Source: Micromonospora sp. CB01531 (GTDB lineage Bacteria > Actinomycetota > Actinomycetes > Mycobacteriales > Micromonosporaceae). Taken from it: 64,000 nucleotides of DNA. The notes under the pieces are model-generated. The model saw only the letters and a list, made by a program, of their open reading frames with translations. It searched no databases and was not told where the DNA came from. Positions 2,393 to 45,135 of this stretch are shown piece after piece (position 1 is the stretch's first letter; each line of letters starts with the position of its first letter). The position numbers and the translations under genes are program-made. The DNA lies in the NCBI RefSeq assembly GCF_001905095.1, contig NZ_LWLS01000056.1, forward strand, positions 1 to 64,000. Reading direction: 5' to 3'.

Positions 2393-2489
2393 AGCACCAC
2401 CGGGATCATCTCGAACCCGGCTCACCGCCGACTCCGGCCGGCGGCGTGACCGGCCATACCGGGTAGTGCGGACTGAAGACGCCGTCGAC

Positions 2490-3948: not shown

Positions 3949-4000
3949 CGGCGGTGCCGGCGGAGTGGGCATCAGGGCTTCAGCCGCCGGCTCGTCGTGT

Positions 4001-7131: not shown

Positions 7132-7232
7132 GGGCTGGAGAATAGTTCGGATCAACCTCCTAGCGGTCGCCCGCTCCGGAGCGCGAGAGCCGTGACCGCG
7201 CCGCACGGCACCCGTGGCGCCGATGGACGTCG

Positions 7233-10633: not shown

Positions 10634-10692
10634 GAATGGGTCCACCTTTCTGGGCAGCAGCCGCCCTTCGGCCAGGGAAGGACAACGGTCAT
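10630..10692 (-). CDS. 20-residue leader ORF coupled to the acylase gene
   Basis: A minus-strand frame MTVVLPWPKGGCCPERW... of 20 codons has a near-perfect AGGAGG five bases before its ATG. Its TGA overlaps the ATG of the acylase gene (ATGA). Its coding DNA contains a GGGC/GCCC hairpin candidate around the two Cys codons. Arrangement and ribosome-binding site argue for real translation, either as a leader controlling the acylase or as simple coupling. No homologue is recognised. Confidence 0.5.
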   Translation of the reverse strand: MTVVLPWPKGGCCPERWTHS

Positions 10693-10760
10693 CGCCGCCT
10701 CCTGACCGCTTGGGGATCAACCTGGCCCAAACTGCGTACCATTCGCTCGGGCGGCGTGGC

Positions 10761-10780
10761 AATAGAGATCAAGAGCTATT
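10761..10780. promoter_or_regulatory. AT-rich inverted repeat upstream of the leader ORF
   Basis: AATAG and CTATT arms flank ten bases in an AT-rich island about 70 bp upstream of the leader ORF. Position suggests a promoter or operator for the acylase transcript, but the arms are short. Confidence 0.25.
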
Positions 10781-10817
10781 TGACCTGCGAGACATGCTCG
10801 TGACAATCGAGGTCCGT

Positions 10818-10885
10818 CGCGAGTGGAGTCGCGGTCGATCGCGAGTGGAGTGGCGGCCGGTCCGCGAGTGGACTGGCGACGGGTA
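10818..10885. repeat. three tandem 22-23 bp repeats
   Basis: CGCGAGTGGA recurs at 10818, 10840 and 10863, each followed by a related ST-rich segment (GTCGCGG, GTGGCGG, CTGGCGAC). This gives three near-identical tandem units in the spacer between the ABC transporter's last gene and the acylase promoter region. They may be operator-like direct repeats or a decaying minisatellite. Confidence 0.7.
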
Positions 10886-10891
10886 CGGCCC

Positions 10892-15447: not shown

Positions 15448-15503
15448 GAGGGCTTCCTTTCCCGAGGCGGTTCTTACTCAGCGGGGATGGGGTCGGGGGC
15501 CGC

Positions 15504-15531
15504 CGCCGCCGCGGTGGGCACCGCGGCGGCG
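15504..15531 (-). terminator. strong hairpin between GH2 and importer genes
   Basis: A perfect 12-bp stem (arms 15504-15515 and 15520-15531, half-site CGCCGCCGCGGT) with a 4-nt loop sits 22 bp after the GH2 stop. It probably terminates or attenuates GH2 transcription before the binding-protein gene. Confidence 0.65.
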
Positions 15532-15553
15532 ACGGCGAGGAGGCGGATTCGCC

Positions 15554-29769: not shown

Positions 29770-32700
29770 TCACAGACGGGCCTTCAGGTAGGCGCCGGCC
29801 GCGAGCAGTTGCGTGCGGGCCGACTCGTCGGTGGCGGTCCTGGCCGCCGCCGCGAACCGGTCCAGCGCGGCCTTGGCCGGGTCCTTCTGGCCCGCCGCCG
29901 CCGTGCTCTTGGCCGCCTGGAGCTGGCCGAACAGGTGGTCGGCCAGATCCTCGCTGATCAGGCCGTCCGCCTGGTATCGCCGCACCAGCGCCTGGGCGTT
30001 GTCGTAGGTGGCGACGATCTCGAACGAGACGGTCACCTCCGTGGTGTTGCCGGCCAGGTCGGTCGCCACGACGGTCAGTTCGTGGCCGCCGGCCGTGGGC
30101 TGGACACCCGCGCCGCTCTCGATCGCCACCCCGTCCAGGCGGAGGGCCACCGAGTCGACGCCCGACGCGGCGTCGCGGGCCGTGGCGGCGATCGGCAGTG
30201 ACCTGCCGAGGTCGTACTTGCCGCCGTTCGCCACGCCGTCGACGGTCACGACCGGGTCCGTGGTGTCCACGGCCAGGGACACCGCCTTCAGCGCGGAGAT
30301 GTTGCCGGCCTCGTCGATCGCCCGGAGCCGCAGCTCCCACCGGCCGTCCTCGGTCACCTTGATCGGCTCGCGGTACTCGGTCCAGGCGCCGTCGCCCTCG
30401 ACGAACTCGATGCGTACCGGCCCGCCGCGGTCATCGCTCGCCGAGGCGGTGACCGTCACCGGCGAGGTGTACCAACCGCGCTTGCCGTTCGGCTGCGCCG
30501 GGTCGACCGCCACGGTCAGGCTCGGCGCCGTCGTGTCGAGAATCCGGAAGTAGTCGAAGCCGACCGTGACCGGCTGCGCCTGCTCCGGACCGAGCGCCAT
30601 CAGACCGAACGAGGTCATCACGGCGTCGTTGGTGACCGGCTGGCCGAGGGAGGTCCAGTTGACCCCGCCGTCGCTGATCTGGGCCGAGTAGGTGTTCCCA
30701 CTCCGGCTCAGCCGCAGGTAGTACCAGCCGCTCTCGGACGAGTCGGCGATGTCGATCGACCGGTTGCCGCCGTTGCCGAACTGCGCGTTGCGTTCCGAGA
30801 CGAGCTCGGCGCGCAGGTTCGTCGGCGTTCCGGCGTTGTTGTTCGCCACCACGTCGAACTTCACGTAGTTGTCGTCGTTGTTGTAGACCAGGAAGCCGGC
30901 CAGCTGCCACTTGTGCAGCATCGTCGGCGTCAGCCTGGTCTCGATCGTCCAGTTACCGGCGGCGACGTCCGCGGGGATCTTCTGCAGGATGAAGTTCCGC
31001 GGCGAGTCGTTGTTGGTGCCGTTGATGTCGCCCGGCTGGGTCTCGATGCGCAGCGCACCGCCGCTCACCGCGGCCTTGGTCGAGTCGTACCGCACCACCG
31101 AGTTCCACCGGCAGCCGTCGAGCGTGCTGCCGTCGAACTCGTCGCTGGGCGCGCGGACCCCGTCGTCCGTGCCGTCCGGCGTGATGGTGAAGTGGTCGAA
31201 CACCGCGTTGACCCGTGCCGCCCCGGTGTCCCCGGCGGCCATGGGGCCGACGGTCGCGTTCGGGATGACGGTCGCGGAGCCGGCGAGCGCCGTCCAGCTC
31301 TGACCGTCGGCGGAGTACGCCGCGGTCAGCTTCTGACCGTCGCTGACCAGTCGCAGGTGCGCGGTGGCCGGGAAGTCCGCCGGCAGACCCACGTTGGCGT
31401 GCCAGGTCCGCGTCCCGCCGGCCTCGGTCTGGAACTCCATGATCCGACCGCCGGACGAGGAGCGGGTGAACGCCAGTTTGACATAGTCGTTGTCGGTGCC
31501 GTGCATGAGCAGGCCGGCGTGCTGCCACTCGCGGTCGTGCGGGATGGTCACCTTCGTGGTGATCGTCCACGGTCCGACCTTGGCGCGCTGGCCGGCGTAG
31601 CTGATCGGTCCGGTGTTCGCCTCGTTGATGTCGCCGTTGGTGACCGGCAGCACCAGCCCGCCGTTGGTGACCCGCACCGGCAGGTTCGGGGCGTTGCGCA
31701 CGGTGGTCCACCGGTTGGTGTTCAGCGTGTCACCGTCGAAGGTGTCCGAGCCGCGGATCGCGCAGCCCGGAGTGGTCTCCGGCGGTGCCGGGTGGATGGC
31801 CTTGTCGACCAGGGTGAAGCCCGTGAACTTCACTTCGCTGGTGGCCGACGTGTTGTGCGCGGTGACCGCGAGGCCGATGTCCTGCGGGCTGGCCGCGCCG
31901 GGCAGCGTCACCGGGTCGCCGACCAGGGTGAACGACTTCCCGTCCTTGCTCCAGTACCCGTAGTACTTCCCGCCGTCGCGCACGATCCGCACCCAGGACG
32001 GGTAGCTGGTGTTGCTGGCGCCGGTACTGGCGTCGAGCTGGCCGTTGCCGTCGGTGTCGCGCAGCCACTCGAACCCGAGGCCCGCCCGCATCGTCATCGC
32101 CGCGTACCCGGGCGACCTGCCGGGCTGGGTGACGTCGTTCCGGACGATCAGGCCGGCCTTGGCGGAGTTATTCGTGTTCGTCTGGCTCTCGATCTTCACC
32201 GTGGCGGTCCAGGTGTTGCCGGCCGCCGCCGGCAGATACACCGAGCCGTACTGGTCGGTGCCCTGCCACATGTTCTCGCCGCCGGCGTTGATGATCCAGG
32301 TGTCCTGGTCCGGCCGGTCGAACGCGGCGGTGGTGTTGCTGTAGGTCTGCCAGGCTCCGTAGAGGTCACCGACCTCGACCTGCACGACGCGGGACTTGGC
32401 GTGGTAGCCCTTGTTGTTGGTCGCGACCGCGGTCAGCTGGTAGCGCTTCTGGGTGGACGCGTTCCACTTCATCGAGTACGGCGCCGTGGTGTCGACGCCG
32501 ATCGACGTGCCGTCGACGAAGAACTCGACCTTGGTGATCGTGTTCTCCGCGTCGCTCGCGGCTGCGGTCACCTGGATCTCGCCCGGCTCCAGCTCGTCGG
32601 TCGGCGTCGGGGAGGTCACCGCGACCTTCGGCTTGCTCGTCGGCGAGACGCCCTTGCCGTCGGCCTCGATGAAGTTCAGGCGCCGCTCACCGGCACCCGG

Positions 32701-35700
32701 GAACACCGCGTACAGGGTGAACGTCTCGCCGGGGTCGGGCACCTCGACCGGGACGTCCACGTAGCCGCCGCCGCTGGTCGCCGGCACCTGCGCGGTGCCC
32801 AGCAGCGCGCCGTCCGGCGCGCCCCGCCGGAGCTCGATCCTGCCCGCACTGGCGGCCGACGCCCGCAGGATCAACCGGTCGACGTTGTGCAGGTTGACCG
32901 GGTCGTACGACGCCCAGGCGCCGTTCTGGCCGGCGATGGAGTTCCCGTGGCCCTCGACGTCCCGCGACGAGCCGACCGTCACGTTCGACGAGTTGTCGAA
33001 GAACTCCGCCTCCCGCTGCTTCGGGAACATCAGGGTGGTGTCCGAACCGGTCAGGCTCGGGATGCCACCCGCGCCACCGGAGTCGGCGTAGCGGCCGTCG
33101 ATCGCGTAGAAGACGTTCATGTCCTCGCCGTGTCCGCCGCCGAGGTCGGCGACCACCTTGCCGGTACGCCCGTGCAACGGTTCGGCCGGGTGCGCGTGCT
33201 CGTCGTGGCCCATCGCCGGCTGGATCACCACGTCGGCGTCGTCGATCTGGGTGTCCTCGGCGTCGCTGACCGACAGGTCCCAGCTCACCTCGTCGCCGAA
33301 GTCGAAGAACGCGCCGTTGGGCGGCTGGTTGAACTTCACCTTCGGCCGGGTGTTGCCGACCGTGATCGGCACCGTCGTCGTCCCGGTCTTGCCGGCCGGG
33401 TCGGTCACCGTGAGGCGGGCGTTGTAGACGCCGTTCGCGGTGTAGGTGAAGGTCGGCTTCGGCTCGGTGGAGTCGGCGGAGCCGTCACCGGTGAAGTCCC
33501 ACTCGTAGCGCAGCTGCTCGTTCTCCGGGTCGGTGCTGCCCGAGCCGTCGAAGCGGACCTGCAGCGGCGCCTGGCCGGAGTCGGGCGAGGCGCTGATCTT
33601 CGCCGTCGGCGAGCGCGAGCCGGAGATGTAGTCGACCCGGTACAGCCCCGAGTTCGGGTTGTCGCGGCCGAAGCCGCCGCCCCAGTCCAGCACGTACATC
33701 GAGCCATCGGGACCGAACTTGGAGTCGATCGGGGCGAGGAACTGCTGCTGCGGCAGGAACGGGTTGACCTTCTCGACCCCGCCTTGCCCGTTCGGGATGA
33801 TCGAGTACATCTTGTTCCGCGACCACTCGTAGAAGAACGGCTTGCCGTCGTAGGACGCCGGGAACTTGGTGTCGGACTGCAGGTTCGGGTCGTACTTGTA
33901 GAACGGGCCGCCCATCGGAGCCAGGCCGCCACCCTGCGGGATGACCGACGGCACCGAGGAACGCTTGTAGCCGTACCACATCTTGGCCGGCTTGGCGGGC
34001 GGCAGCTCGGTCAGGCCGGTGTTGCGCACCGAGTCGTTGATCGGGCGGGCGCAGTCGAAGTACGCCCCGACCGTCACCGGGTTCGTCCGGTAGTCCACGT
34101 CCCGGAACGGCTCGTTGTTGCCCATGCACAGCGGCCAGCCGTAGAAGCCGGGCTCGGTGATGAGGTTCCACTCGGCGATGCCGGCGGGTCCGCGGTCCGG
34201 GTTGTCGTTGCTGTTGTCCGGCGAGTAGTCCGCCAGCCCGATGGCCCCGGTCTGCGGGTCGATCGAGAACCGGAACGGGTTGCGGAAGCCCATCGCGTAG
34301 ATCTCCGGCCGGGTCTTCGCCGTGCCCGGCGGGAACATGTTGCCTGCGGGAATGGAGTAGCTGCCGTCCGCCTCGGGGCGGATCCGCAGCAGCTTGCCGC
34401 GCAGGTCGTTGGTGTTGGCCGAGGTCGCCCGCGCGTCGTGGAACGTGCCGTCCCGCTCGGACAGCGGCGCGTAGCCGCCGGACGGCTCGGAGTGCGGGTT
34501 CACGTCGTCGCCGACGCTCAGGTAGAGGTTTCCGTCCGGGCCGAACGCGAGGCCGCCGCCGGTGTGCCCGGGCTCGTCCGGGAGCCGGCGCGCCGGCACC
34601 TCGAGCAGGACCTTCTCCGTGGCCCGGTCGATCTGCGAGCCCGGCCCGACGGTGAGCCGGGACAGGCGGCTGACGAAGTTCGCCGGGTCGCTGTCGTTCG
34701 TGCTCGCCGGCGCGTAGTAGATGTAGAGGTAGCCGTTCTGGGCGAACTTCGGATCGAGCGCGATGCCGAGCAGGCCGTCCTCACCGCCGGAGTACACGGG
34801 GATCGTGATCGCGGTGGAGGTGGTCTTCGTCCGCGGGTCGTACACCCGGATCTGGCCGCGTACCAGCTCGGTGAAGAACACCCGGCCGTCCGGTGCGACG
34901 TCCATGGCGAACGGGGCGCTGGTGTTCTGGTCCAGCGGGACCCGTTCGAACTGGTCCCACACCGTGCCGCCGCAGTCGCCCTCGACCATGCCGGCCGCCC
35001 ACTTCACGCCGCCGACGATGTGCTGCACCAGCCCCGGCTCGCCGGTGTAGTGCGCGCCGAAGTGGCCCATGCCGGTCATCCAGGCACGGCCGCCGTCGTA
35101 CGGCTTGCACCACGAGATCGGGTGGTCGTAGCCCATGGCGTTGTTGCCCGGGTTGTACGTCGTCTCGTCCATCGTGGCGAGTACGTGCGCGTTGCCGCGG
35201 ACGTTGAGCGCGTAGTTGTACCACTCGTCGGCGCGCTCCCACCGCTGCGGCAGGTGCGCGGTCGACGGGTGGCTGTGGTCCTCGACGCGGACAGTGCCGG
35301 GCAGGCCGGGGCTGGTGCCGGTGGCGGCGTGGCCGGGCATCAGCGAGCCGATCATGTTGTCCCACCACGCGTAGTTCCCGCGCATGTCGGTGGCGTTGTG
35401 GATGGCGACGATGCCGTGCCCGGCCTTCATGTAGCGCTCCATCGCCGCCTTCTGGTCGGCGGTCCACGGGTCGCCGGAAGCCTGGAACATCACCAGGGCG
35501 TCGAAGTGCGCGAGGTCCTCGTCGTTGAAAATCGACGAGTCCTCGGTGTGCTGCGAGGTGATCCCGGCGTTGGCGAAGGCGGCCTGCAGCACGGGAACGC
35601 CCTGCTCGATCGCCTCGGTGTGCCGGAACTGAGTGGTCTTGGTGAAGATCAGCACGTGCGCTTGGCCATGGTCGCCCGGGTGGGCGACCGCCGGCGCTGG

Positions 35701-35781
35701 GCTGATCATGGACAGCGCGAGCGCGCCGACGACGGGTATCGCTAACAGTCGTCCCCACCGGGGACGCCAGGTCACGTTCAT
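29770..35781 (-). CDS. giant secreted ThuA + PQQ-type sugar dehydrogenase multidomain protein with FIMAH tail
   Basis: A 2003-residue secreted protein. Order by residue: signal peptide (1-33); ThuA-like glutamine-amidotransferase fold (about 40-270, VLIFTKTTQFRHTEAIEQG, GIVAIHNATD); soluble-glucose-dehydrogenase-like beta-propeller (about 275-720, LLGIALDPKFAQNGYLYIYY, HTGGGLAFGPDGNLYLSVGD, YAMGFRNPFRFSIDPQTG); PKD domain (about 724-810); CBM-like module (about 925-1040); Ig-like domain (about 1048-1137); three concanavalin-like modules (about 1141-1328, 1343-1534 and 1546-1748; TFDGDTL.TNRW and EFDGSTLDGCRW starts); two Ig-like repeats (about 1750-1920); and a helical FIMAH domain (about 1928-2003). 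It probably oxidises or rearranges sugars at the cell surface while bound to a polysaccharide. It is next to a sugar-uptake operon, with 100 bp between them. Confidence 0.85.
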   Translation of the reverse strand: MNVTWRPRWGRLLAIPVVGALALSMISPAPAVAHPGDHGQAHVLIFTKTTQFRHTEAIEQGVPVLQAAFANAGITSQHTEDSSIFNDEDLAHFDALVMFQASGDPWTADQKAAMERYMKAGHGIVAIHNATDMRGNYAWWDNMIGSLMPGHAATGTSPGLPGTVRVEDHSHPSTAHLPQRWERADEWYNYALNVRGNAHVLATMDETTYNPGNNAMGYDHPISWCKPYDGGRAWMTGMGHFGAHYTGEPGLVQHIVGGVKWAAGMVEGDCGGTVWDQFERVPLDQNTSAPFAMDVAPDGRVFFTELVRGQIRVYDPRTKTTSTAITIPVYSGGEDGLLGIALDPKFAQNGYLYIYYAPASTNDSDPANFVSRLSRLTVGPGSQIDRATEKVLLEVPARRLPDEPGHTGGGLAFGPDGNLYLSVGDDVNPHSEPSGGYAPLSERDGTFHDARATSANTNDLRGKLLRIRPEADGSYSIPAGNMFPPGTAKTRPEIYAMGFRNPFRFSIDPQTGAIGLADYSPDNSNDNPDRGPAGIAEWNLITEPGFYGWPLCMGNNEPFRDVDYRTNPVTVGAYFDCARPINDSVRNTGLTELPPAKPAKMWYGYKRSSVPSVIPQGGGLAPMGGPFYKYDPNLQSDTKFPASYDGKPFFYEWSRNKMYSIIPNGQGGVEKVNPFLPQQQFLAPIDSKFGPDGSMYVLDWGGGFGRDNPNSGLYRVDYISGSRSPTAKISASPDSGQAPLQVRFDGSGSTDPENEQLRYEWDFTGDGSADSTEPKPTFTYTANGVYNARLTVTDPAGKTGTTTVPITVGNTRPKVKFNQPPNGAFFDFGDEVSWDLSVSDAEDTQIDDADVVIQPAMGHDEHAHPAEPLHGRTGKVVADLGGGHGEDMNVFYAIDGRYADSGGAGGIPSLTGSDTTLMFPKQREAEFFDNSSNVTVGSSRDVEGHGNSIAGQNGAWASYDPVNLHNVDRLILRASAASAGRIELRRGAPDGALLGTAQVPATSGGGYVDVPVEVPDPGETFTLYAVFPGAGERRLNFIEADGKGVSPTSKPKVAVTSPTPTDELEPGEIQVTAAASDAENTITKVEFFVDGTSIGVDTTAPYSMKWNASTQKRYQLTAVATNNKGYHAKSRVVQVEVGDLYGAWQTYSNTTAAFDRPDQDTWIINAGGENMWQGTDQYGSVYLPAAAGNTWTATVKIESQTNTNNSAKAGLIVRNDVTQPGRSPGYAAMTMRAGLGFEWLRDTDGNGQLDASTGASNTSYPSWVRIVRDGGKYYGYWSKDGKSFTLVGDPVTLPGAASPQDIGLAVTAHNTSATSEVKFTGFTLVDKAIHPAPPETTPGCAIRGSDTFDGDTLNTNRWTTVRNAPNLPVRVTNGGLVLPVTNGDINEANTGPISYAGQRAKVGPWTITTKVTIPHDREWQHAGLLMHGTDNDYVKLAFTRSSSGGRIMEFQTEAGGTRTWHANVGLPADFPATAHLRLVSDGQKLTAAYSADGQSWTALAGSATVIPNATVGPMAAGDTGAARVNAVFDHFTITPDGTDDGVRAPSDEFDGSTLDGCRWNSVVRYDSTKAAVSGGALRIETQPGDINGTNNDSPRNFILQKIPADVAAGNWTIETRLTPTMLHKWQLAGFLVYNNDDNYVKFDVVANNNAGTPTNLRAELVSERNAQFGNGGNRSIDIADSSESGWYYLRLSRSGNTYSAQISDGGVNWTSLGQPVTNDAVMTSFGLMALGPEQAQPVTVGFDYFRILDTTAPSLTVAVDPAQPNGKRGWYTSPVTVTASASDDRGGPVRIEFVEGDGAWTEYREPIKVTEDGRWELRLRAIDEAGNISALKAVSLAVDTTDPVVTVDGVANGGKYDLGRSLPIAATARDAASGVDSVALRLDGVAIESGAGVQPTAGGHELTVVATDLAGNTTEVTVSFEIVATYDNAQALVRRYQADGLISEDLADHLFGQLQAAKSTAAAGQKDPAKAALDRFAAAARTATDESARTQLLAAGAYLKARL

Positions 35782-35881: not shown

Positions 35882-36733
35882 CTAGGGCATCACCGCCCGC
35901 AGGAACTTCAGGCCGTCGATGGCGATCGCGTCCTGGCTCGCGGCGAGCGGGCGCCAGATGGAGGCGGCGGTCGCGATCGTCGCGTTCTCCGCAGTGAACG
36001 ACTCGATGCACAGGGGGCCGCCGTAGCCCGCCGCGTCGATCGAGGCGAGGATCGCCGGCCAGTCCAGGTGATCGGCGCCGGGCGTGCCGCGGTCGTTGCC
36101 GCACACCTGGACGTGTGCCACCCGGCCGGCGGCCGAGCGGATGGCCGCCGGGATGTTCGTCTCCTCGATGTTCTGGTGGTAGAGGTCGAGCGCGACGCCG
36201 CAGTGCGGCAGGTCGCCGATCGCCTCGAGGGTCTGGCCGACGGTGTTGAGCAGGCTCGTCTCGTAGCGGTTGAGCGGCTCGACGGCCACCGTGACGCCGG
36301 CCGCGCCCGCGTACTCGACGACGGGGGCGAGGCTCTCCCGAAGTTGCGCGTACGCCGCGGCCCGCTCGGCCGGTGACAGCCGCCAGGTCCGGCCGACCGA
36401 GGCGTATGCCGGTCCGGCGATCACCGGCGAGCCGACGGTCGCGGCGGCGTCGACCACGCGGAACAGGTAATCCTGTGTGGACCGGATGGTGGCCGGGTCC
36501 GCCGCGACCAGCTCACGACCAGGGGGCATCACGAGGCACACGGTGGCGCCCAGGCCGTGGTCGGCGAGCACCTGGGCAGCCCGCCCCGGCTCCCAGTCGT
36601 CCGGGTTCTCCACCGGAAGCTCGAGCACGTCGAAGCCCCACCCCGCGACCCTGGCCGCGAGGGCGGCCAAGGTCGCGTCGGTCAGCGGCGAGGCCCACAC
36701 CCAGGTGTTGACCCCGAGCGGATGACCGATCAC
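35882..36733 (-). CDS. sugar isomerase/epimerase, D-tagatose/D-psicose 3-epimerase-like
   Basis: A 283-residue TIM-barrel protein of the AP-endonuclease-2/xylose-isomerase-like family. Metal-ligand and catalytic positions of the ketose 3-epimerases are visible: Glu in VAVEPLNRYETSLLN, Asp in GVALDLYHQNIEE, His in VAHVQVCGNDRG and Glu in LCIESFT. GTG is chosen because it overlaps the stop of the binding-protein gene (GTGA), the usual coupling here. As last gene of the importer operon it would act on the imported sugar or its oxidised product. Confidence 0.85.
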   Translation of the reverse strand: MIGHPLGVNTWVWASPLTDATLAALAARVAGWGFDVLELPVENPDDWEPGRAAQVLADHGLGATVCLVMPPGRELVAADPATIRSTQDYLFRVVDAAATVGSPVIAGPAYASVGRTWRLSPAERAAAYAQLRESLAPVVEYAGAAGVTVAVEPLNRYETSLLNTVGQTLEAIGDLPHCGVALDLYHQNIEETNIPAAIRSAAGRVAHVQVCGNDRGTPGADHLDWPAILASIDAAGYGGPLCIESFTAENATIATAASIWRPLAASQDAIAIDGLKFLRAVMP

Positions 36734-37905
36734 CGCCACGGCCCCGGGTAGCCCGGCATGCCCTCGCAGCCGCACATTGCGTAGTGCAGTGGCGGCATGT
36801 CCTGCTTCACGTAGTCCTTGACGTTGTCGCCGGTGATCCGCGGCTGCGGCAGCACCCACTCCTTCGGCACCTGCTCGCCCTTGAGGATCTTCAGCGCGGC
36901 GATGATCGGCGTGCGCCACTGGTAGGTCGGATAGGTCGGCGCGACCGCAGTGAGGCCCTCGTCGACCCACAGCCGCAGGAAGTCCTGCTGGTCCTCGCCG
37001 ACGATGGCCGGGACGTCGACCCCGGCGTCCTGGAAGGCCTCGGCCGCGGCGACGGCGGTCGCGCCGGCATCCATCCACACGCCGTCGATCCGGCCCTCGC
37101 GCTGGATGTAGTCGGCCACGATGCTCTTGGTCTTCGCCGCGTCGCCGTCGGTGAACTCCACACCGACCACCTTCAGCTCGCTGCCGCCGAAGATCTCGTT
37201 GGCGGCCGCCCAGCGCTGCTCGAGCACGTCCACACCGGGCAGGATGCGCAGAGCGAGAACCTTGCCGCCCGGCTTGACCTTCTCCTTCAGGAACTCCGCG
37301 CCGTCCGCACCGAAGGCGAAGCCGCCGATGGGGTGGATGAAGGTGACCGGGCAGCTGGTGTTGACGCCCCGGTCGAACACGATCACCGGCACGCCGGTCT
37401 GGCACGCCTGCTCCACCGCCGGCGTCAGTGTGGCGGTGGTGTTCGGCGAGATGATGATCGCGGAGCAGTTCTTGCCGGACAGCGACTGGATGTCGCTGAT
37501 CTGCTTGTCGTCCTTGGCCTCCGCATCCAGCACGGTGAACGTGGTGATCTCCGGGTGCTGCTTCACCTCCTGCTGCATGGTCTTGAAGCCCACCTGTCGC
37601 CAGGGGTTGTTCACCGCGGCGTTGGAGAAGCAGAGGGTGTATTTCCCGCCGGGCTTGGCGAACTTTGCGGTGTCCACCATTTCCGGCTCGAGCATCTGCT
37701 CCCACGGCTTGCCGTCCGGGCCCTGCGGCGTGGCGCCGCGGAACGCCAACTGGCGGTCGTACTCCGCCTGGTCGAAGAACTTCGACTTGTTCGCGTCGGA
37801 ACTGGGTGATCCGCCGGCAGTGGCCGTGTCGTCGGGCAGGTCGCTCGAGCATCCGGCGAGCGCCAGTGCGCCCGCCACGACCACCGTGGCCCATTTCTTG
37901 GTCAT
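36730..37905 (-). CDS. sugar-binding lipoprotein of ABC importer
   Basis: A 391-residue type I periplasmic-binding-protein lipoprotein with lipobox LALAGC near residue 19 and a Ser/Asp-rich linker. The family core includes YTLCFSNAAVNNPWRQVGFK, IIISPNTTATLTPAV, VPVIVFDRGV and WMDAGATAVAAAEAFQDAGV. It ends in a Cys-rich tail (MCGCEGMPGYPG). The tail is unusual and may be stabilised by the extra Cys seen at SCPVTF. AGGAGA precedes the ATG. The ligand is not identifiable; the two neighbouring enzymes suggest a cyclitol, ketose or glycoside. Confidence 0.85.
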   Translation of the reverse strand: MTKKWATVVVAGALALAGCSSDLPDDTATAGGSPSSDANKSKFFDQAEYDRQLAFRGATPQGPDGKPWEQMLEPEMVDTAKFAKPGGKYTLCFSNAAVNNPWRQVGFKTMQQEVKQHPEITTFTVLDAEAKDDKQISDIQSLSGKNCSAIIISPNTTATLTPAVEQACQTGVPVIVFDRGVNTSCPVTFIHPIGGFAFGADGAEFLKEKVKPGGKVLALRILPGVDVLEQRWAAANEIFGGSELKVVGVEFTDGDAAKTKSIVADYIQREGRIDGVWMDAGATAVAAAEAFQDAGVDVPAIVGEDQQDFLRLWVDEGLTAVAPTYPTYQWRTPIIAALKILKGEQVPKEWVLPQPRITGDNVKDYVKQDMPPLHYAMCGCEGMPGYPGPWR

Positions 37906-37937: not shown

Positions 37938-38951
37938 TCAGGAGGAGGCAGGTTGCGCGGGTGCCGCGCTGCTCCGCTGTTTCGGCCACCACCGCAGCCG
38001 CTGCCGCACGCCGCTGCCGAGGGAGGCGTAGGCGACGGCGGCGATGATGATCACGCCCTGCACGGCCGACTCGAGGGCGCCGCTCACGCCGAGCAGGTTC
38101 AGCAGCGTGAACAGGGACTCCAGCGAGAGCGCGCCGGCGGCGGCCGCGACCACCGACCCGCGTCCGCCGCCGAGCAGCACGCCGCCCAGCACGACGGCGG
38201 TGATCGCCCGGAACTCCAGGCCGTCGCCGACCTGCGCCGAGACGCCGGCGAACCCGCCCAGCAGGATCGCGGCGACCGCCGCGAGCAGCCCGGACAGGAC
38301 GAACGCGAGCAACCGGAGCCGGTCGACCTGGCCGCCGGACAGCCGCACGGCGGCCTCGTTGTCGCCGACCGCGACCAGCGCCCGGCCGGTGCCGCCGCGC
38401 ATGAACAGCGCCGCGGCCACCAGGATCGCCAGCAGGATGAGCACCGACCAGGGAACCTCGCCGAGCACGGGGACCTCCACGGCACCGCGCCCGAACATCC
38501 GGAACCCGGCCGACAGCGCGCCGCGTGGGGCACCCCCGGTCCACAGGAAGATCGCGCCGTCGAGCACCAGCAGCATGCCGAGCGTGACGATGAACGACGG
38601 CACCAGGAGCTTTGTCGTGACCAGCCCGTTGACCAGGCCGACCAGCAGGCCGAACCCGAGCACGAGCAGGATCACCCGCGCCGTCGCGGACTCGCTGCCG
38701 TTGATCAGCCGGGCCGCGATGACCACCCCGGCGGTCACCAGCGCGCCAACCGACAGGTCGAACCCGCCGGAGACGATGACGAAGTACTGCCCGATCGCGA
38801 GGATCATCAGCGGCGCGGCCCGCTTGAGCAGCGCCAGGTAGCCGGACGGCTCGGCGTAGGCCGGTCCGGCGATCGCGAGCCCGAGCAGCAGCACGAACAG
38901 GACGACGAGCACCGGCGCGGTGCCCTCGGCAAGGCGGGGACGCCAGGTCAT
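37938..38951 (-). CDS. sugar ABC transporter permease
   Basis: A 337-residue BPD_transp_2 permease with about nine helices, the motif MILAIGQYFVIVSGGFDLSVGA, the NGLVTTKLLVPSFIVTLG segment and EFRAITAVVLGGVLLGGG near the C-terminus. Its ATG overlaps the stop of the preceding permease by four bases. The C-terminus is basic then Ala/Pro-rich (QRLRWWPKQ). Confidence 0.9.
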   Translation of the reverse strand: MTWRPRLAEGTAPVLVVLFVLLLGLAIAGPAYAEPSGYLALLKRAAPLMILAIGQYFVIVSGGFDLSVGALVTAGVVIAARLINGSESATARVILLVLGFGLLVGLVNGLVTTKLLVPSFIVTLGMLLVLDGAIFLWTGGAPRGALSAGFRMFGRGAVEVPVLGEVPWSVLILLAILVAAALFMRGGTGRALVAVGDNEAAVRLSGGQVDRLRLLAFVLSGLLAAVAAILLGGFAGVSAQVGDGLEFRAITAVVLGGVLLGGGRGSVVAAAAGALSLESLFTLLNLLGVSGALESAVQGVIIIAAVAYASLGSGVRQRLRWWPKQRSSAAPAQPASS

Positions 38952-39973
38952 GCCAACCTCCCACGGCCGCGGCTGGCGATCATGCGGCGGGCGTAGAGCG
39001 CGACCGCGGTCACGAGTACGACGCCGCGCACCACGTCCTTGAAGAACGGATCGACCTCGAGGTCGTCGAAGATGGTGTCCAGGGTGGCGAGGATGAGAAC
39101 GCCGCCGATCGTGCCGACGACGCCGCCCCGGCCACCGGCGAGCAGCGTCCCGCCGAGCACGACGGCGGCGATGGACTCCAGGTCGTACCCGGCGTCGGTG
39201 CCGACGTACGGTGCCCCCGACCCGAGCCGGCTGGCGAGGTAGATCCCGGTGAGACCGGCGGCGAGCGAGCACAGCACGTGCGCGGTGACGATGACCCGGC
39301 GGGTGGGCACCCCGGACAGCCGGGCCACCTCGATGTCGCCGCCGACGGCGTACATGTGGTAGCCGGGGCGGGTCCGCGACAGGTACCACCAGGCCAGTGC
39401 GGCGGCGGCCAGCATGAGCAGCGCCGCGACCGGTATCGGGCCGATCCGGTCGTAGCCGAGGTGCTGGAAGCCGCGCGGTACGTCGCCGGCCGGGCCGGTG
39501 TAGTTGTCCTCGAGATAGCCGCGCAGGATCAGCGCCACACCGAGCGTGGCGATGAACGCGTTGGCCTTGAGGACGGTGATGACCAGCCCGTTGACCAGGC
39601 CGACGCCGGCGGCGACCGCGAGCGCCAGCAGCACGCCGGGCACGAGCATGCCGTCCCGCCCGGCCATCGTCTCCGCGGCGATCAGTGAGGTGAGGCCGAC
39701 CAGGTAGGCGACGGACAGGTCGAGGGATCCGGTGAGGATCACCATCGTCTGTCCTATCGCCACCAGACCGAGTGCGGTGGCCCGGGTGAGGATGTTGAGG
39801 ATGCCGCCCTGGTCGAGCAGGACCTCGCCGCGCAGCCCGACGAGCACGCTGCCGACGACCAGCAGCGCGACGAGAGCGAGGTAGACGATGACGGTCGGGG
39901 TGAGCCGCCGACGCACCACCGGCCCCATGGCCTTCTGCTCGACCGGAACCGTGTTCTCCCGAAGAATGCTCAC
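38948..39973 (-). CDS. sugar ABC transporter permease
   Basis: A 341-residue permease of the same family, with LVAIGQTMVILTGSLDLSVA, NGLVITVLKANAFIATLG and YDLESIAAVVLGGTLLAGG. It overlaps the ATPase gene at its start and the second permease at its end, four bases each, so stoichiometric translation is likely. The two permeases should form a heterodimer. Confidence 0.9.
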   Translation of the reverse strand: MSILRENTVPVEQKAMGPVVRRRLTPTVIVYLALVALLVVGSVLVGLRGEVLLDQGGILNILTRATALGLVAIGQTMVILTGSLDLSVAYLVGLTSLIAAETMAGRDGMLVPGVLLALAVAAGVGLVNGLVITVLKANAFIATLGVALILRGYLEDNYTGPAGDVPRGFQHLGYDRIGPIPVAALLMLAAAALAWWYLSRTRPGYHMYAVGGDIEVARLSGVPTRRVIVTAHVLCSLAAGLTGIYLASRLGSGAPYVGTDAGYDLESIAAVVLGGTLLAGGRGGVVGTIGGVLILATLDTIFDDLEVDPFFKDVVRGVVLVTAVALYARRMIASRGRGRLA

Positions 39974-41472
39974 GCCACCTCACCGATCCCGTGTCCGGTG
40001 GCCAGCGCCATCACAGCCCCCTCACTCGCGCCGGCAGGCAGCTCACCGGCCAGCGCGCCGTCGTGCATGACGAGGATCCGGTCACTCATCCCGATCAGCT
40101 CGGGAAGCTCCGAGGAGATCATCAGCACCGCCACCCCGCGCCGCGCGAGGTCGCGCAGCAACTCGTGCACGGCCCGCTTCGCGCCGACGTCGATGCCGCG
40201 CGTCGGCTCGTCGACCACCAGCACCCTCGGCGCGACCGCCAGCCACTTGGCGAGCACGACCTTCTGCTGGTTGCCGCCGGACAGGAAGCGCACCTCCTGG
40301 TGCTCCCCGCGGGCCACCACGGTCACCAGGTCGAGCAGCTCCGCCACATCCGACTTCTCGCGGGAGCGCCCGCCGCGCAGCGCGGCGCGGCGCACCAGCA
40401 GCGTGTTGTCCCGCACGGACTGCCCAAGCGCCAGCCCGTCCCCCTTGCGGTCCTCGGTGACCAGCGCGATCCCGAGGCGCACGGCGGTGCGGGGCCGGGT
40501 CACCCGCCGGGTCGCTCCGTCGACCTCCAACGAGCCGCGGGTGAACGGCTCGACGCCGAACACGGCGCGCGCGACCGCCGAGCGGCCAGACCCTTGCAGC
40601 CCGGCCAGCCCGACGATCTCCCCGGCACGTACCTCGAGGTTCAGGCCGCGGAGGCGGTCGTTGCCGGCGCCGCGCAGCGCGAGGCGGACCGCCCCGAGGT
40701 CGTCGGGGACCGCCCGGTCCGGGTAGTACTCGCCCAGGTCACGGCCCACCATGTGGCGGACCAGGTCCTCCGAGGTCAGCTCGCTGGTCGGGGCGCAGGT
40801 CACGAACTGGCCGTCCTTGAGCACGGTGATCCGGTCGGAGAGGTCGAACACCTCGCGCATCCGGTGCGAGACGTAGAGGATCGCGATGCCCCGCTCGCGC
40901 AGCCGCCGCACCAGGTCGTAGAGCAGCTCGACCTCGTGATCGGCGAGCGCGGCGGTCGGCTCGTCCATGCCCAGCACCCGCGCGTCGGTCGACAGCGCCT
41001 TGACGATCTCCACGACCTGTCGTTGGGCCACCGACAGTGACGACACGGTGTCGGCCGGATCGATCCCGTCCTCGCCGAGCCAGTCCAGCAGCTCGCGGGT
41101 GTCGGCCATCATGCGCCGGCGGTCGACCTGCATCCGCCGCACCGGCTCGCGGCCGAGGTAGACGTTCTCGGCAACGCTGCGGTGCGGCAGCAGGGTGAAT
41201 TCCTGGTGGATGATGGCGATGCCGGCCCGCTGCGCGTCGGTGGGACCGGCGAACGACATTTCGGCGCCGTCGACCTCGATGGTGCCGCCGTCCGGCCGGT
41301 GCACCCCGGCCAGCACCTTGAGCAGCGTGGACTTGCCCGCACCGTTCTCGCCCATCACGGCGTGCACCTCGCCGCCCCGCAGCTCCAGGTCCACCCCGCG
41401 CAGCACCGGCACGCCGAGGAAGGACTTGGTGATCCCGGTCAGCCGCGCGCTCGTCGTTGGGCCGGGCGTCAT
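39970..41472 (-). CDS. sugar ABC transporter ATP-binding protein
   Basis: A 500-residue RbsA-type double ATPase: Walker A GENGAGKST, Walker B RVLGMDEPTAALAD and VSHR in the first half. The second half has degenerate GLQGSGRSA, LVTEDRKGDGL, FLSGGNQQKVVLAKW and VVDEPTRGIDVG. It is clearly distinct from the two YtfR-like ATPases in the other sugar locus. The start MTPGPTT overlaps the oxidoreductase stop (ATGA). Confidence 0.92.
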   Translation of the reverse strand: MTPGPTTSARLTGITKSFLGVPVLRGVDLELRGGEVHAVMGENGAGKSTLLKVLAGVHRPDGGTIEVDGAEMSFAGPTDAQRAGIAIIHQEFTLLPHRSVAENVYLGREPVRRMQVDRRRMMADTRELLDWLGEDGIDPADTVSSLSVAQRQVVEIVKALSTDARVLGMDEPTAALADHEVELLYDLVRRLRERGIAILYVSHRMREVFDLSDRITVLKDGQFVTCAPTSELTSEDLVRHMVGRDLGEYYPDRAVPDDLGAVRLALRGAGNDRLRGLNLEVRAGEIVGLAGLQGSGRSAVARAVFGVEPFTRGSLEVDGATRRVTRPRTAVRLGIALVTEDRKGDGLALGQSVRDNTLLVRRAALRGGRSREKSDVAELLDLVTVVARGEHQEVRFLSGGNQQKVVLAKWLAVAPRVLVVDEPTRGIDVGAKRAVHELLRDLARRGVAVLMISSELPELIGMSDRILVMHDGALAGELPAGASEGAVMALATGHGIGEVA

Positions 41473-42599
41473 GCCGGCACCTCTGTCCACGCGCCGTCCG
41501 CCGCCGCGGAGGCCAGCACCGCGTCGGTGATCCGGACGGCGCGCAGGCCGTCCGCGAACGTGGGCAGCCCGTCCGGGACGTCCGCGCCACGCACCGCCCG
41601 GTAGGTGTCGGCGACGAACGCGTCGAAGCAGTCCTGGTAGCCCTGCGCATGCCCGGCGGGCAGCCGGACGTAGCGCGCGGCGGAGGGGTGCAGCGTGCCA
41701 GGGTCACGCAGCAGCGTCTGGCCGCCCTCGCGCCGGCCGACCCACAGCCGCTCCGGGTCCTCCTGGTCGAAGCCGAAGCTCGCCTCGGTGCCGGAAAGCT
41801 CCAGGTGCAGCCGGTTCTTGCGGCCTGCGGCGACCTGCGACACCACCAGCGTGCCAACCATGCCGGCGGCCGTGGTGAAGTGCACGGTGGCCAGGTCCTC
41901 GGTGGGCTCCCCGGCTCTGCGGGCGCGCTCGTGCACGACCGCGGTGCGCGCGGACAGCCGGGCGATCCGGTCGCCCGTGACGAACTCGAACAGGTCGCAC
42001 CAGTGCGAGCCGATGTCGGCGAACGCTCGCGACGGCCCGCCGACCGCGGCATCGACCCGCCAGTCGTCGTCGGACGGGCGGGACAGCCAGTCCTGGAGGT
42101 AGCCGCCGGTCACGCTGGCGACGACGCCCGCCTCTCCGGCGGCCAGCCGGGCGCGCAACTCGCGCACCATGGGGTGGAAGCGGTAGACGAACGGCACCGT
42201 GGCTACCCGATCGCCGGCCGCCGCCATCAGCGCCGTGGCCTCGACGCTGCCCGTGGCGAGGGGCTTTTCGCAGATGACGTGCACGCCGGCGGCGAGCGCG
42301 GCGGCGGCCACGGGGGCGTGCGACGCGTTGGGCGTGCACACGTGCAGCACGTCGATCTCGGCATTGTCGAGCAGGGCCGCCAGGTTCGGGTAGCCCTCGT
42401 CCGCGCCGACGGCGCGAGCCGCAGCGGCGGCGCCCTCGGGGCGCGACGCCACCGCCGCCACGACGGTCGCTCCGGCGCGCCGGGCCGCCTCCGCGTGCAC
42501 CTGGCCCATGAACCCCGCGCCGACCACCGCCACGCGTAGCGTCTGCTGGTCGGATTCGAGGCCACCACCAGACGCCGTAATGACATCGGTCACAGACAT
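41469..42599 (-). CDS. Gfo/Idh/MocA-family NAD(P)-dependent oxidoreductase
   Basis: A 376-residue sugar or cyclitol dehydrogenase. The Rossmann fold is at the N-terminus (LRVAVVGAGFMGQVHAEAA), with HVCTPNASHAPVAAAALAAG and the catalytic-Lys motif VICEKPLA at about residues 90-115. The C-terminal alpha/beta domain has GGYLQDWL and DIGSHWCDLFEFVTG, whose His is the usual catalytic partner. First gene of a six-gene operon with the importer and epimerase. The start MSVTDV has no ribosome-binding site and sits beside palindromes, so leaderless translation is possible. Confidence 0.88.
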   Translation of the reverse strand: MSVTDVITASGGGLESDQQTLRVAVVGAGFMGQVHAEAARRAGATVVAAVASRPEGAAAAARAVGADEGYPNLAALLDNAEIDVLHVCTPNASHAPVAAAALAAGVHVICEKPLATGSVEATALMAAAGDRVATVPFVYRFHPMVRELRARLAAGEAGVVASVTGGYLQDWLSRPSDDDWRVDAAVGGPSRAFADIGSHWCDLFEFVTGDRIARLSARTAVVHERARRAGEPTEDLATVHFTTAAGMVGTLVVSQVAAGRKNRLHLELSGTEASFGFDQEDPERLWVGRREGGQTLLRDPGTLHPSAARYVRLPAGHAQGYQDCFDAFVADTYRAVRGADVPDGLPTFADGLRAVRITDAVLASAAADGAWTEVPA

Positions 42600-42731: not shown

Positions 42732-43904
42732 ATGAACAATGGGCACAGCGCCGCCCCGACATCGCCCGGCGACTTGCTTCAGCTGCTGCGCGACGGGCAG
42801 GCACGCACCCGAGCCGAGCTGGCAACCGAGACCGGACTGGCCCGGTCGACCGTGCGCCTGCGCCTCGACGCGCTCACGGATGCCGGACTGGTGACCGACT
42901 GGGGCAGCGACGCCGTCACCGGCGGCCGGCCCGCCAGCAGGTTCGTGTTCAACGCCCGCGGCCGGGCGGTGCTGGCAGCCGACGTCGGGGCCACCCACGC
43001 CACCGTCGCCATCGCCGACCTGACCGGTGAGCCGCTGGCCGTCGAGAGGCTCACCCTGGACATCGCCGACGGGCCCGACGCGGTGCTCAGCCTGCTCATC
43101 GACACCTGGCGACGGCTGTGCGCCAACCACGACCCCGCCGCCCCCATCGCCGGCGTCGGCATCGGACTGCCCGGCCCGGTCGAGCACTCGACCGGCAAGC
43201 CGACCCACCCGCCGATCATGCCCGGATGGAACGGATACGACGTGCCCGCGCGGATCGCGGTTGACTTCGCCGTGCCGGTCCTGGTGGACAACGAGGTCAA
43301 CCTGATGGCGCTCGGGGAGCACGTCCGCTGCTTCCCGGACGAGGCGCACATGATCTTCGTCAAGGTCGCGACCGGCATCGGCTCCGGTCTCATCAGCAAC
43401 GGCCAACTGCACCGCGGCGACGTCGGCGCGGCCGGCGACCTCGGACATATCCTGGCCCCACACGCGGACGACGTGCAATGCCGCTGCGGCAACAGCGGGT
43501 GCCTGGAGGCCGTGGCCAGCGGCCCCGCCATCGCCGCGAAGCTCCGCGCCGCCGGGCTCGACGCGACGAACAACGCCGACGTCGTGGCCCTCGTGCAGGC
43601 CGGCAGCCCGATCGCCGGCCAAGCTGTACGGCAGGCCGGCCGGGACATCGGCGAGGTGCTGGCCGCCGGAGTCAGCCTGTTCAACCCGTCGCTGATCGTG
43701 ATCGGCGGGGCGGTCGCGCAGGCCGGCGAGATGCTGCTGGCGGGAGTCCGGGAGTCGATCTACCGCCGTTCGCTGCCGCTGGCCACCGAGCGCCTGCGCA
43801 TCGTCACCTCACAGGCCGGCGCGAACGCGGGCGTGGTCGGCGCCGCGGCGATGGTCGTCCAGCATGTCCTCTCCCCCACCGTGCTCGACCGCGAGCTGGC
43901 CTGA
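42732..43904 (+). CDS. ROK-family transcriptional repressor
   Basis: A 390-residue regulator. An N-terminal winged helix (residues about 12-65, RAELATETGLARSTVRLRLD) precedes an actin-fold ROK domain. Motifs are the ATP/phosphate loop VLAADVGATHATVAIAD, IGLPGPVEHSTG, the sugar-site VLVDNEVNLMALGEH, and the zinc-binding consensus GHILAPHADDVQCRCGNSGCLE. It is divergent from the Gfo/Idh-importer operon, and the palindromes between them are likely its operator. The effector is probably the transported sugar. Confidence 0.92.
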   Translation: MNNGHSAAPTSPGDLLQLLRDGQARTRAELATETGLARSTVRLRLDALTDAGLVTDWGSDAVTGGRPASRFVFNARGRAVLAADVGATHATVAIADLTGEPLAVERLTLDIADGPDAVLSLLIDTWRRLCANHDPAAPIAGVGIGLPGPVEHSTGKPTHPPIMPGWNGYDVPARIAVDFAVPVLVDNEVNLMALGEHVRCFPDEAHMIFVKVATGIGSGLISNGQLHRGDVGAAGDLGHILAPHADDVQCRCGNSGCLEAVASGPAIAAKLRAAGLDATNNADVVALVQAGSPIAGQAVRQAGRDIGEVLAAGVSLFNPSLIVIGGAVAQAGEMLLAGVRESIYRRSLPLATERLRIVTSQAGANAGVVGAAAMVVQHVLSPTVLDRELA

Positions 43905-43957: not shown

Positions 43958-44977
43958 TCAGCCGCCGTTGGTCGGCCGGTAGGTACGCGGTCGGCGGGCG
44001 GGTGCGGCCGGATTGGTCACCCCACTGACCGCCGCCAGGAACTTCGGGCCCATCGCTGCCCGGGCCTGCACCGCGGGATGGGTGGCGCCGAAGTTGTCGG
44101 AATCCGCCTGCCCGTCGGCGAACAGCACGTAGGTCAGCACTGGGGCGCCGGCCGCGTCGAAGACGATCCCCGCCTCGTGGCGGGCGTCGGCGAACCAGCC
44201 CGCCTTCGTGGCCACCCGGGCCCGCTCCGCCGAGGACATGGTGCGCCGGATCCCGTCGGTGAAGGCGATCGGGGAACGCAGCAGATTGATCAGGAAGGTG
44301 GTCGAGGCGGGCGAGAGCAGCGTGCCGGCGACCAGCGCCTGCAGCAGATCGTGCGTCTCACGAGCGGTGCTGGTGCCGAGAAAGAACCGGTTCGGATTGG
44401 CGACCGGTTGAACCTGCGTGTGGGGGAACCCCTTGGCGATCAGGATCTGGTTGAGCTCGGCGGCCGGGCAGACCAGCCCACAGAGCCGCACAGCGGTGTC
44501 GTCCGAGACCGTCAGCAGCGCGGCGAGCGCATGACCCAGGGTCACCGAGCTGGGGTATCCCGTGTCGAGGCCGAAGATGCCGTCACCGCCCGGCACCACG
44601 ATCGCCGCCGTGACCTCCACCCGCTGGTCCAGGGTGAGCAGGCCCCGGTCGACCTTGTCCAGCACCGCCACGGCCACCGCGACCTTGTTGACGCTGTAGG
44701 CCTCGACCACCGTGTCGGCGTTCTCCTGCACCGCGACCCGGGGCGCGCCGCCGGCACCGGCGACGCTGAGGTACGAGTACCAGTTTCCGCCAGCCCGGGT
44801 CCGCTCCCGCTGGTAGGCCGCCGCCACGTGGTTCACCGGGGATCCGCCTTCTCCGCCGTGCGAAGTGGACGCACCGCGCGACGCCCCCGCGGCCGGGCTC
44901 GCCAGCCCGAGTACCGCACCGGCGGTGGCCATGGTGCCGACGCCCAGCGCGGTCCTACGATTCACTCTGCTCGCCAC
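43958..44977 (-). CDS. secreted class A beta-lactamase-fold serine hydrolase
   Basis: A 339-residue penicillin-recognising-enzyme fold protein with a twin-arginine-like signal (VNRRTALGVGTMATAG). The nucleophile motif is SVNK (about residue 95), the second motif is SDD in TVSDDTAVRL, and the third is KAG instead of KTG (ATKAGW). The omega-loop Glu of true class A beta-lactamases is not obvious (LGTSTARETHDLLQAL may supply it). It could be a beta-lactamase, a peptidase or an esterase. GTG with GGGAG upstream is chosen; a TTG further upstream is possible. Confidence 0.75.
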   Translation of the reverse strand: MASRVNRRTALGVGTMATAGAVLGLASPAAGASRGASTSHGGEGGSPVNHVAAAYQRERTRAGGNWYSYLSVAGAGGAPRVAVQENADTVVEAYSVNKVAVAVAVLDKVDRGLLTLDQRVEVTAAIVVPGGDGIFGLDTGYPSSVTLGHALAALLTVSDDTAVRLCGLVCPAAELNQILIAKGFPHTQVQPVANPNRFFLGTSTARETHDLLQALVAGTLLSPASTTFLINLLRSPIAFTDGIRRTMSSAERARVATKAGWFADARHEAGIVFDAAGAPVLTYVLFADGQADSDNFGATHPAVQARAAMGPKFLAAVSGVTNPAAPARRPRTYRPTNGG

Positions 44978-45135
44978 GCCTCTACTCCCGTCCAACGTGA
45001 ACCGTCGGCGGCCACCGGCAGATGGCCGGCGCGGGACCGAAAGTGATCACCGATCCCGCCCGACCACCCTAGGCGAACCCGAGGCGCCGCGCTGCCCTTG
45101 GCACCGCCTGCACCGGCCGGCACCGCCGACGGTGA

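Follow-up and report, generated by a model that had tools for sequence, protein, structure and literature searches.

What does a single protein do that joins a ThuA domain to a GSDH-type propeller, and what has it to do with the sugar-uptake operon encoded beside it? This question is raised by a locus of the soil actinomycete Micromonospora sp. CB01531 within a 64,000-nucleotide stretch of DNA that was analysed as a whole (the window). Databases contain many ThuA and GSDH-propeller proteins under the names 'trehalose utilisation' and 'PQQ-dependent sugar dehydrogenase', and to our knowledge activity has been measured for none of the ThuA-propeller family. Searches of the open-licence literature, including one that paired the ThuA domain and sugar dehydrogenase, found no paper on the fusion. 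The window locus joins ThuA, propeller, importer and isomerase into one conserved unit, and one activity measurement would give function to the ThuA and GSDH-propeller families at once; through the binding protein of this unit the substrate can be approached directly, and the PQQ label of this propeller subfamily requires testing.

A 2003-residue multi-module fusion had been proposed from the bare sequence, and translation of the window indeed revealed one intact open reading frame on the minus strand (29770–35781) with an ATG start, 2003 codons and 0 internal stops, for which full-length or near-full-length relatives exist. Inspected by eye, the N-terminus is signal-like (residues ~1–33; 35683–35781), with a basic n-region, a hydrophobic stretch and A-V-A, and the protein is accordingly predicted to be secreted. 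The proposed modules were recovered by Pfam, with the FIMAH-like tail as a borderline case. A ThuA domain (residues 43–262; 34996–35655; PF06283, E 1.2e-55) is followed by a GSDH-type beta-propeller (residues 271–720; 33622–34971; PF07995 match at residues 289–553, E 4.4e-31), a PKD domain (residues 724–808; 33358–33612), a segment at residues 811–920 (33022–33351) to which Pfam gave no match, and a CBM6 module (residues 924–1032; 32686–33012; CBM_6, E 4.5e-13). The order ThuA, propeller, PKD, segment, CBM6 is invariant in 64/64 fusions found beside related operons. These module counts cover 64 of 65 fusion loci, L088 being left out because its fusion consists of two ORFs.

Behind this core the modules vary from locus to locus. 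In the window they comprise a Big_7 Ig-type domain (residues 1051–1118; 32428–32631; present in 36/64 operon fusions), three ConA-like modules of the GH43_C2/DUF1349 kind (residues ~1140–1755; 30517–32364; 36 to 42 of 64), Ig-type repeats of the OmpL47/Big_13/BiPBP_C type (residues 1771–1917; 30031–30471; 40/64), for which the Big_13/BiPBP_C match itself spans residues 1794–1917, and the FIMAH-like tail (residues 1927–2000; 29782–30003; 14/64), which scored 24.1 bits, just under the 24.8 cut-off. Counted as Pfam stretches, these are two Big_7, two GH43_C2 and three DUF1349. The unmatched segment is His-rich and carries a GHDxHAH … GH motif (residues 858–864 and 883–884), in which H859, H862 and H864 are kept in 70/70 distinct rows and H884 in 69/70. 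A cytochrome c in the fusions was considered and rejected: CxxCH occurs in 2/79 ORF rows, both of them one gene fetched twice, and the motif, at position 63, falls in a stop-to-stop ORF whose reading frame was entered ahead of the gene.

Structure models support both enzyme-like domains. The ThuA model (pLDDT 94.8) superposes on 4jqs with Z 24.8 and rmsd 2.3 over 217 aligned residues, so that the window protein has the GAT-like fold of the ThuA family as well as its PF06283 domain. The propeller model (pLDDT 84.8) has the six-bladed GSDH fold, with Z 40.8 to 3a9g and 33.1 to 1c9u and a range of Z 33–41 across the sGDH/Asd enzymes. Residue conservation was counted in 75 distinct rows, namely the window fusion, four sister fusions of its own genome, 64 operon fusions and six second fusions from the same loci. 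In the ThuA domain many His, Asp and Glu residues are invariant, among them H128, H171, H199 and H220 in 75/75. The residues that we take to be catalytic in sGDH (His144, Arg228-Asn229 and Gly247-Pro248) have their kept counterparts in H406 (75/75), R500 (75/75), N501 (74/75), G531 (74/75) and P532 (75/75).

This pattern bears on the view that the propeller is not catalytic and that ThuA, as a hydrolase or lyase, is the sole enzyme, with propeller, CBM6 and tail only binding the substrate. Hedgehog-interacting protein (HHIP), which is not known as a PQQ enzyme, has the same fold and is among the closest matches (Z up to 32.0), its entries including the glycan-bound 7pgm (heparin), and the invariant ThuA residues would suit a domain that does all the chemistry. 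The propeller's catalytic-site residues are nearly invariant as well, a degree of conservation hardly expected of a domain that only binds, and we therefore consider this alternative unlikely, though deserving of attention. ThuA and propeller may rather act together.

A further alternative keeps the database label, as the sequence-only reading did when it proposed a PQQ-type sugar dehydrogenase oxidising a bound glycan outside the cell, with the product then imported; PQQ would come from the surroundings or from other, PQQ-producing organisms, and its binding would be of a modified kind. Fold and kept His, Arg-Asn and Gly-Pro residues are shared with the sGDH/Asd enzymes (PF07995; 1c9u, 2g8s, 3das, 2ism, 3a9g). 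Unlike these, the window protein has a fused ThuA domain, many extra modules, no pqqC found in its genome and no Arg-x-Arg. This pair, Arg406-x-Arg408 in sGDH, which we assume to contact PQQ, occurs in 0/75 distinct fusions (by sequence-profile alignment rather than a superposed active site), yet it is kept in four solved relatives (1c9u, 2ism, 3a9g and 3das) and in C1, a canonical paralog of the same genome. The lost charges could be replaced by R530, which is invariant (75/75), or by the nearly invariant R655 (74/75) and K639 (73/75). K377 of sGDH aligns to S654, a position that is never Lys in the 75 rows; it was not counted as lost because a one-residue shift could pair it with R655. Of the PQQ-site residues whose absence had been named as evidence against the earlier proposal, the Arg pair is missing, and His, Arg-Asn and Gly-Pro are kept.

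The search for PQQ synthesis, which covered pqqC as the sole pqq gene, is similarly divided. No pqqC was found in the own genome (a single-genome search that was also without a control match, and was repeated in wider genome sets), and within the genus 0/37 genomes had a match over the cut-off, with one weak match. Among 61 relatives, one was over the cut-off, and 296 genomes of the phylum gave 32 matches, eight of them over it. In other carriers of the fusion, pqqC was over the cut-off in 5/16 and not found in 11/16. A motif scan of the window fusion gave no CxxCH cytochrome motif, which also speaks against this alternative. With Arg-x-Arg absent and pqqC not found in the genome, PQQ-type glycan oxidation is not established, and we regard it as rather unlikely; the chemistry of the fusion may differ from the PQQ label, since its propeller is without the Arg pair of known PQQ enzymes.

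The genes beside the fusion point to where its product may go. The operon postulated from the sequence, with Gfo/Idh, importer and isomerase genes, was confirmed, as was the 100-bp gap that separates the fusion from the isomerase gene upstream. Operon and fusion all lie on the minus strand and are probably co-transcribed. Nearest to the fusion is a TIM-barrel isomerase/epimerase (AP_endonuc_2; 283 aa; 35882–36733) in which no signal peptide was seen, followed by a sugar-binding lipoprotein of the ribose-binding-protein type (36730–37905), two permeases (BPD_transp_2 by Pfam; 37938–38951 and 38948–39973), an ABC ATPase of the AraG/RbsA type (39970–41490) and a Gfo/Idh oxidoreductase (Pfam; 41469–42599, start ~42599). 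A ROK-family regulator is encoded divergently on the plus strand (42732–43904). The BPD_transp_2 permeases, two-domain ATPase and ribose-type binding protein together make a CUT2-type importer. A 670-aa ORF at 35882–37894 was rejected as one gene: the isomerase is its last 283 codons only, and a different frame encodes the binding protein.

The isomerase scored 114.7 bits against the NCBIfam D-psicose 3-epimerase model (cut-off 300), and the E-D-H-E set, which we take to be the metal set of D-tagatose/ketose 3-epimerases, is incomplete: the position aligned with its His is Gln209 in 81/81 isomerases. The best named equivalog of the Gfo/Idh protein is levoglucosan dehydrogenase (LGDH; NF052479) at 149.3 bits, far under the cut-off of 650; among its solved relatives, LGDH 6a3f ranks third.

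Whether fusion and operon belong together was assessed in 80 loci fetched by the isomerase alone, so that the fusion was not used in ascertainment. The ThuA-propeller fusion was present in 65/80, 55 downstream and 10 divergent, across 19 named actinobacterial genera, which answers the call for a co-occurrence check and establishes a conserved neighbourhood. The fusion-operon arrangement is more than chance because it recurs in other genera. That the two are mere neighbours with no shared function is very improbable: the 100-bp gap and the 15/80 loci without a fusion would allow it, but the fusion recurs in two arrangements across those genera, and a random 21-kb stretch of this Micromonospora genome would hold a ThuA-propeller locus in only ~2% of cases (a rough estimate from 8 loci in 9.24 Mb).

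Gfo/Idh is not constant in this neighbourhood. It was found in 38/51 downstream loci with room for it (absent in 13) and in 0/10 divergent loci, and a more distant Gfo/Idh occurs in nine of the 15 fusion-less loci; being missing in many loci, it was rejected as a core partner. At six loci without it, 10 neighbouring ORFs were scanned: four had Pfam matches that pointed to no constant partner, five had none, and one was a distant Gfo/Idh at a fusion-less locus. The link to 3-keto metabolism that had been drawn from ThuA and Gfo/Idh stands as plausible but indirect: its Gfo/Idh half is weakened, whereas the isomerase, less weighted in that earlier reading, also accompanies further fusions of this genome.

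Our leading, still tentative, reading is thus a secreted, glycan-anchored enzyme that feeds a CUT2 importer and a cytoplasmic isomerase, plausibly through 3-keto chemistry. Outside the cell, the two-domain enzyme of ThuA and GSDH-fold propeller would be held on a glycan by CBM6 and the variable modules and would work on a glycan or glycoside; the small product would be imported by the CUT2-type ABC importer and converted inside by the TIM-barrel isomerase/epimerase-family enzyme and, where present, also by Gfo/Idh. The chemistry would most likely be of the 3-keto-sugar kind, with oxidation or elimination at C3 and with epimerisation or hydration of the product. For the window locus this is plausible because two sister fusions of the same genome, C59 and C24, carry a 3-keto-disaccharide hydrolase domain (PF06439) in the same chain; none was reported in the window fusion by Pfam at E up to 0.01. 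This last result speaks against the reading, as do Gln209 of the isomerase, the inconstant Gfo/Idh and the 15/80 loci without a fusion.

Related systems share parts of this scheme. The E. coli ycj cluster (YcjQ, YcjR, YcjS) has a related AP_endonuc_2 isomerase, Gfo/Idh and ABC genes as in the window; YcjR, by annotation a 3-dehydro-D-guloside 4-epimerase encoded next to a D-glucoside 3-dehydrogenase and ABC genes, is 33% identical to the window isomerase over 159 aa, and the Gfo/Idh proteins are 32% identical over 197 aa. Unlike the window, the cluster has no secreted enzyme of the fusion's kind among 20 listed features. The Bacteroides 3-keto glycan pathway of Nasseri et al. (2024, Nature) reportedly combines oxidoreductases with PF06439-type and isomerase-type enzymes, much as the window operon has an oxidoreductase and an isomerase, and is not known to have a ThuA-propeller fusion. 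The thuEFGKAB operon of rhizobia/Agrobacterium shares a ThuA domain, Gfo/Idh and an ABC importer with the window, where, in contrast, ThuA forms one module of a 2003-aa, apparently secreted fusion and the importer is of the BPD_transp_2 (CUT2) type, ThuE-K being presumably CUT1-type. For thuEFGKAB, assimilation via 3-keto derivatives has been reported (Ampomah 2013, as cited in the consulted part of PMC6683767). Levoglucosan is described in the consulted parts of PMC7676230 and PMC10066097 as being broken down via 3-keto intermediates by Gfo/Idh and isomerase-family enzymes, and its LgdA-B1-B2-C pathway shares an ABC importer, Gfo/Idh and PF01261 isomerase-family enzymes with the window. It differs in its dehydrogenase, the window Gfo scoring far under the LGDH cut-off, and in that no ThuA or propeller fusion is mentioned in the text consulted (0 occurrences of ThuA in that of PMC10066097).

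Beyond this locus, the fusions may represent an unrecognised, widespread attack on glycans without classical glycoside hydrolases, in actinobacteria and haloarchaea, with a propeller not using PQQ in the known way, the His-rich segment as a further metal site, and a TIM-barrel isomerase that would act in the cytoplasm, behind an importer, here and outside the cell in sister loci; as a whole this wider proposal is doubtful. The leading reading is also supported by the own genome, which has nine ThuA genes, six fused to a propeller and two neighbouring a propeller gene. An AP_endonuc_2 gene lies ≤2 kb from four of these six fusions (19 such genes genome-wide), so that a TIM-barrel isomerase family gene stands beside three ThuA-propeller fusions further to that of the window. 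In sister loci the TIM-barrel isomerase is predicted to be secreted, and one of these loci also has a multicopper oxidase and 3-keto-disaccharide hydrolase domains. A haloarchaeal fusion likewise has an AP_endonuc_2 gene within its fetched stretch.

Translation of 29770-35781 on the minus strand revealed an uninterrupted open reading frame of 2003 residues, and a Pfam search recovered in its product the domains named in the earlier sequence-only reading. The upstream operon was likewise found as described there, comprising six same-strand genes (gfo, an ATPase, two permeases, a lipoprotein binding protein and an isomerase) with short gaps or overlaps between them. It is separated from the fusion by 100 bp, and a ROK regulator is encoded divergently. 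Judged by eye, the fusion starts with what resembles a secretion signal, and the binding protein resembles a lipoprotein, while no secretion-type signal was seen in the N-termini of the isomerase (35882-36733, minus strand) or of the Gfo/Idh protein. Elsewhere in the window, a second CUT2-type importer set with a binding protein (11902-18040, minus strand) adjoins a GH2-like protein that carries a LamG module, and 43958-44995 (minus strand) encodes a beta-lactamase-like protein (PF13354), which is likely another serine hydrolase because its NCBIfam class A score of 59 bits lies under the cut-off of 200.

The proposed co-occurrence of fusion and operon was borne out. In each of the five counterparts retrieved from the genus, importer, binding protein and isomerase lie directly upstream of the fusion; gfo is absent from one of them, in M. 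endophytica. When the genome collection was searched with the isomerase as sole query, the best 80 of 155 relatives were taken, a sample that is thus biased to close relatives. ThuA and propeller stood side by side in 65/80 of these loci (60/71 where both sides had room), and all four ABC genes were present in 71/80. The 65 fusion loci span 19 named genera by hand count of titles, with the fusion downstream in 55 and divergent in 10. Gfo/Idh proteins of >50% identity were present in 38 of the 51 downstream loci that had room, in none of the 10 divergent loci and in one of the 15 lacking the fusion, nine of which, mostly from Serinicoccus and other actinobacteria, carry Gfo/Idh at ≤50% identity. 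The gene link between fusion and operon is strong. In two Microbispora loci, operon proteins are 87-93% identical to those of the window, as close as in other Micromonospora species, which suggests a recent transfer between orders. In Cellulosimicrobium sp. CUA-896 (L088:10836-16549) the fusion is split into two overlapping ORFs, either an assembly error or a broken gene.

The own genome (9.24 Mb, 148 contigs) holds nine ThuA genes (ten matches, two being parts of one gene): six GSDH-propeller fusions, two adjoining a separate propeller gene and one alone. Since six such fusions occur here and 54/61 relatives have a match to the protein, the ThuA-propeller type is common; a close counterpart (79-88% identity, first alignments ≥1340 aa, self excepted) was found in only 6/61, own genome counted.

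The AlphaFold model of the propeller (pLDDT 84.8, pTM 0.90) matched the PQQ enzymes 3a9g (Z 40.8, rmsd 2.4, 334 aligned), 2ism (40.3), 3das (37.0) and 1c9u (33.1), compared with up to 32.0 for human HHIP and 29.5 for fungal AA12, and Foldseek agreed. Residues of sGDH with roles in PQQ binding were mapped by a sequence-based profile alignment rather than structural superposition (almost all of sGDH covered, E 1.1e-26). His144, Arg228-Asn229 and Gly247-Pro248 correspond to H406, R500-N501 and G531-P532, each conserved in at least 74 of the 75 distinct rows. However, Arg406 and Arg408 fall on positions 683 (A 48, K 12, R 7) and 685 (I 39, M 34). In this alignment both arginines occur together in 0/75, while 3das, 2ism, 3a9g, 1c9u and the canonical paralog C1 of the own genome carry G/N-R-x-R at the corresponding stretch. 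The PQQ-type assignment therefore held for the His, Arg-Asn and Gly-Pro positions but not for Arg-x-Arg. For pqqC, no match was obtained in the own genome and none over cut-off in the 37 genomes of the genus (one weak match), against 8/296 phylum genomes and 5/16 other fusion carriers. PQQ could be supplied from outside; its use by the fusion is doubtful.

The ThuA model (pLDDT 94.8) was nearest to 4jqs (Z 24.8), 4e5v (22.0) and 1t0b (21.2), ThuA-like structures whose titles name no function, and H128, H171, H199, H220 and C225 are conserved in 75/75 distinct rows. Module counts over 64 operon fusions (the split L088 excluded) showed PKD, the 811-920 segment and CBM6 in 64/64. The large tail noted by the sequence-only reading is the variable part, as its modules occur in 14-42 of 64 (Big_7 36, first ConA 36, other ConA 42, Ig 40, FIMAH 14). 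Without a match in the Pfam search, the 811-920 segment keeps G858, H859, H862 and H864 in 70/70 distinct rows and H884 in 69/70, and its conserved histidines possibly form a metal site. The GHDxHAH motif lies at 33190-33207 (minus strand), in the unnamed stretch between PKD and CBM6.

Among solved structures, L-ribulose and ketose 3-epimerases are closest to the isomerase (3vyl, E 4.8e-36), and there is a further match to the 3-keto-D-glucoside 4-epimerase YcjR (6wn6); a direct comparison with YcjR gave 33% identity over 159 aa. The epimerase label of the isomerase is only putative, since the His aligned at one metal position is replaced by Gln in 81/81 isomerases. The Gfo/Idh protein scored under every NCBIfam cut-off shown; its nearest solved relatives are the uncharacterised 4h3v and 3v5n, followed by levoglucosan dehydrogenase 6a3f. 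Precedents for 3-keto chemistry are the levoglucosan pathway (PMC7676230; PMC10066097) and E. coli ycj (PMC11543891), and for the thu operon assimilation through 3-keto derivatives is reported (PMC6683767). In two sister fusions, on C59 (1886 aa) and on C24 at 163 kb (1374 aa), a single chain combines ThuA and propeller with a 3-keto-disaccharide hydrolase domain (PF06439). Of the six fusions of the own genome, four have AP_endonuc_2 genes no more than 2 kb away (C56, C67, C24 twice), and C56 alone has a Gfo/Idh gene within 10 kb. The C67 and C24 isomerases have signal-like N-termini, with twin arginines in 3/4 by eye. At the C24-163 kb locus the isomerase and fusion genes flank one for a multicopper oxidase, a possible electron acceptor. 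The earlier model, in which a bound glycan is oxidised outside and the product imported, remains plausible in outline, with its PQQ part weakened and the enzyme reaction only putative.

Within C24:155001-174900 (L059), a gene run at 980-11878 starts with a secreted-looking Ig-repeat protein with a C-terminal 3keto-disac_hyd domain and, by eye, a cupredoxin-like stretch (no cupredoxin Pfam match at 1e-5), and continues with a twin-arginine AP_endonuc_2 protein, a multicopper oxidase and a ThuA-F5/8C-GSDH-PKD-3keto-disac_hyd fusion; it looks like a putative, entirely extracellular 3-keto pathway. Within C24:195001-214900 (L058), 4844-13413 holds, in order, a GSDH-PKD gene, a twin-arginine AP_endonuc_2 gene, a ThuA-GSDH-PKD-CBM6 fusion and another AP_endonuc_2 gene whose product bears a signal. 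One stretch fetched from a Haladaptatus plasmid combines a ThuA-propeller protein with genes for a PQQ-dependent sugar dehydrogenase and a sugar phosphate isomerase.
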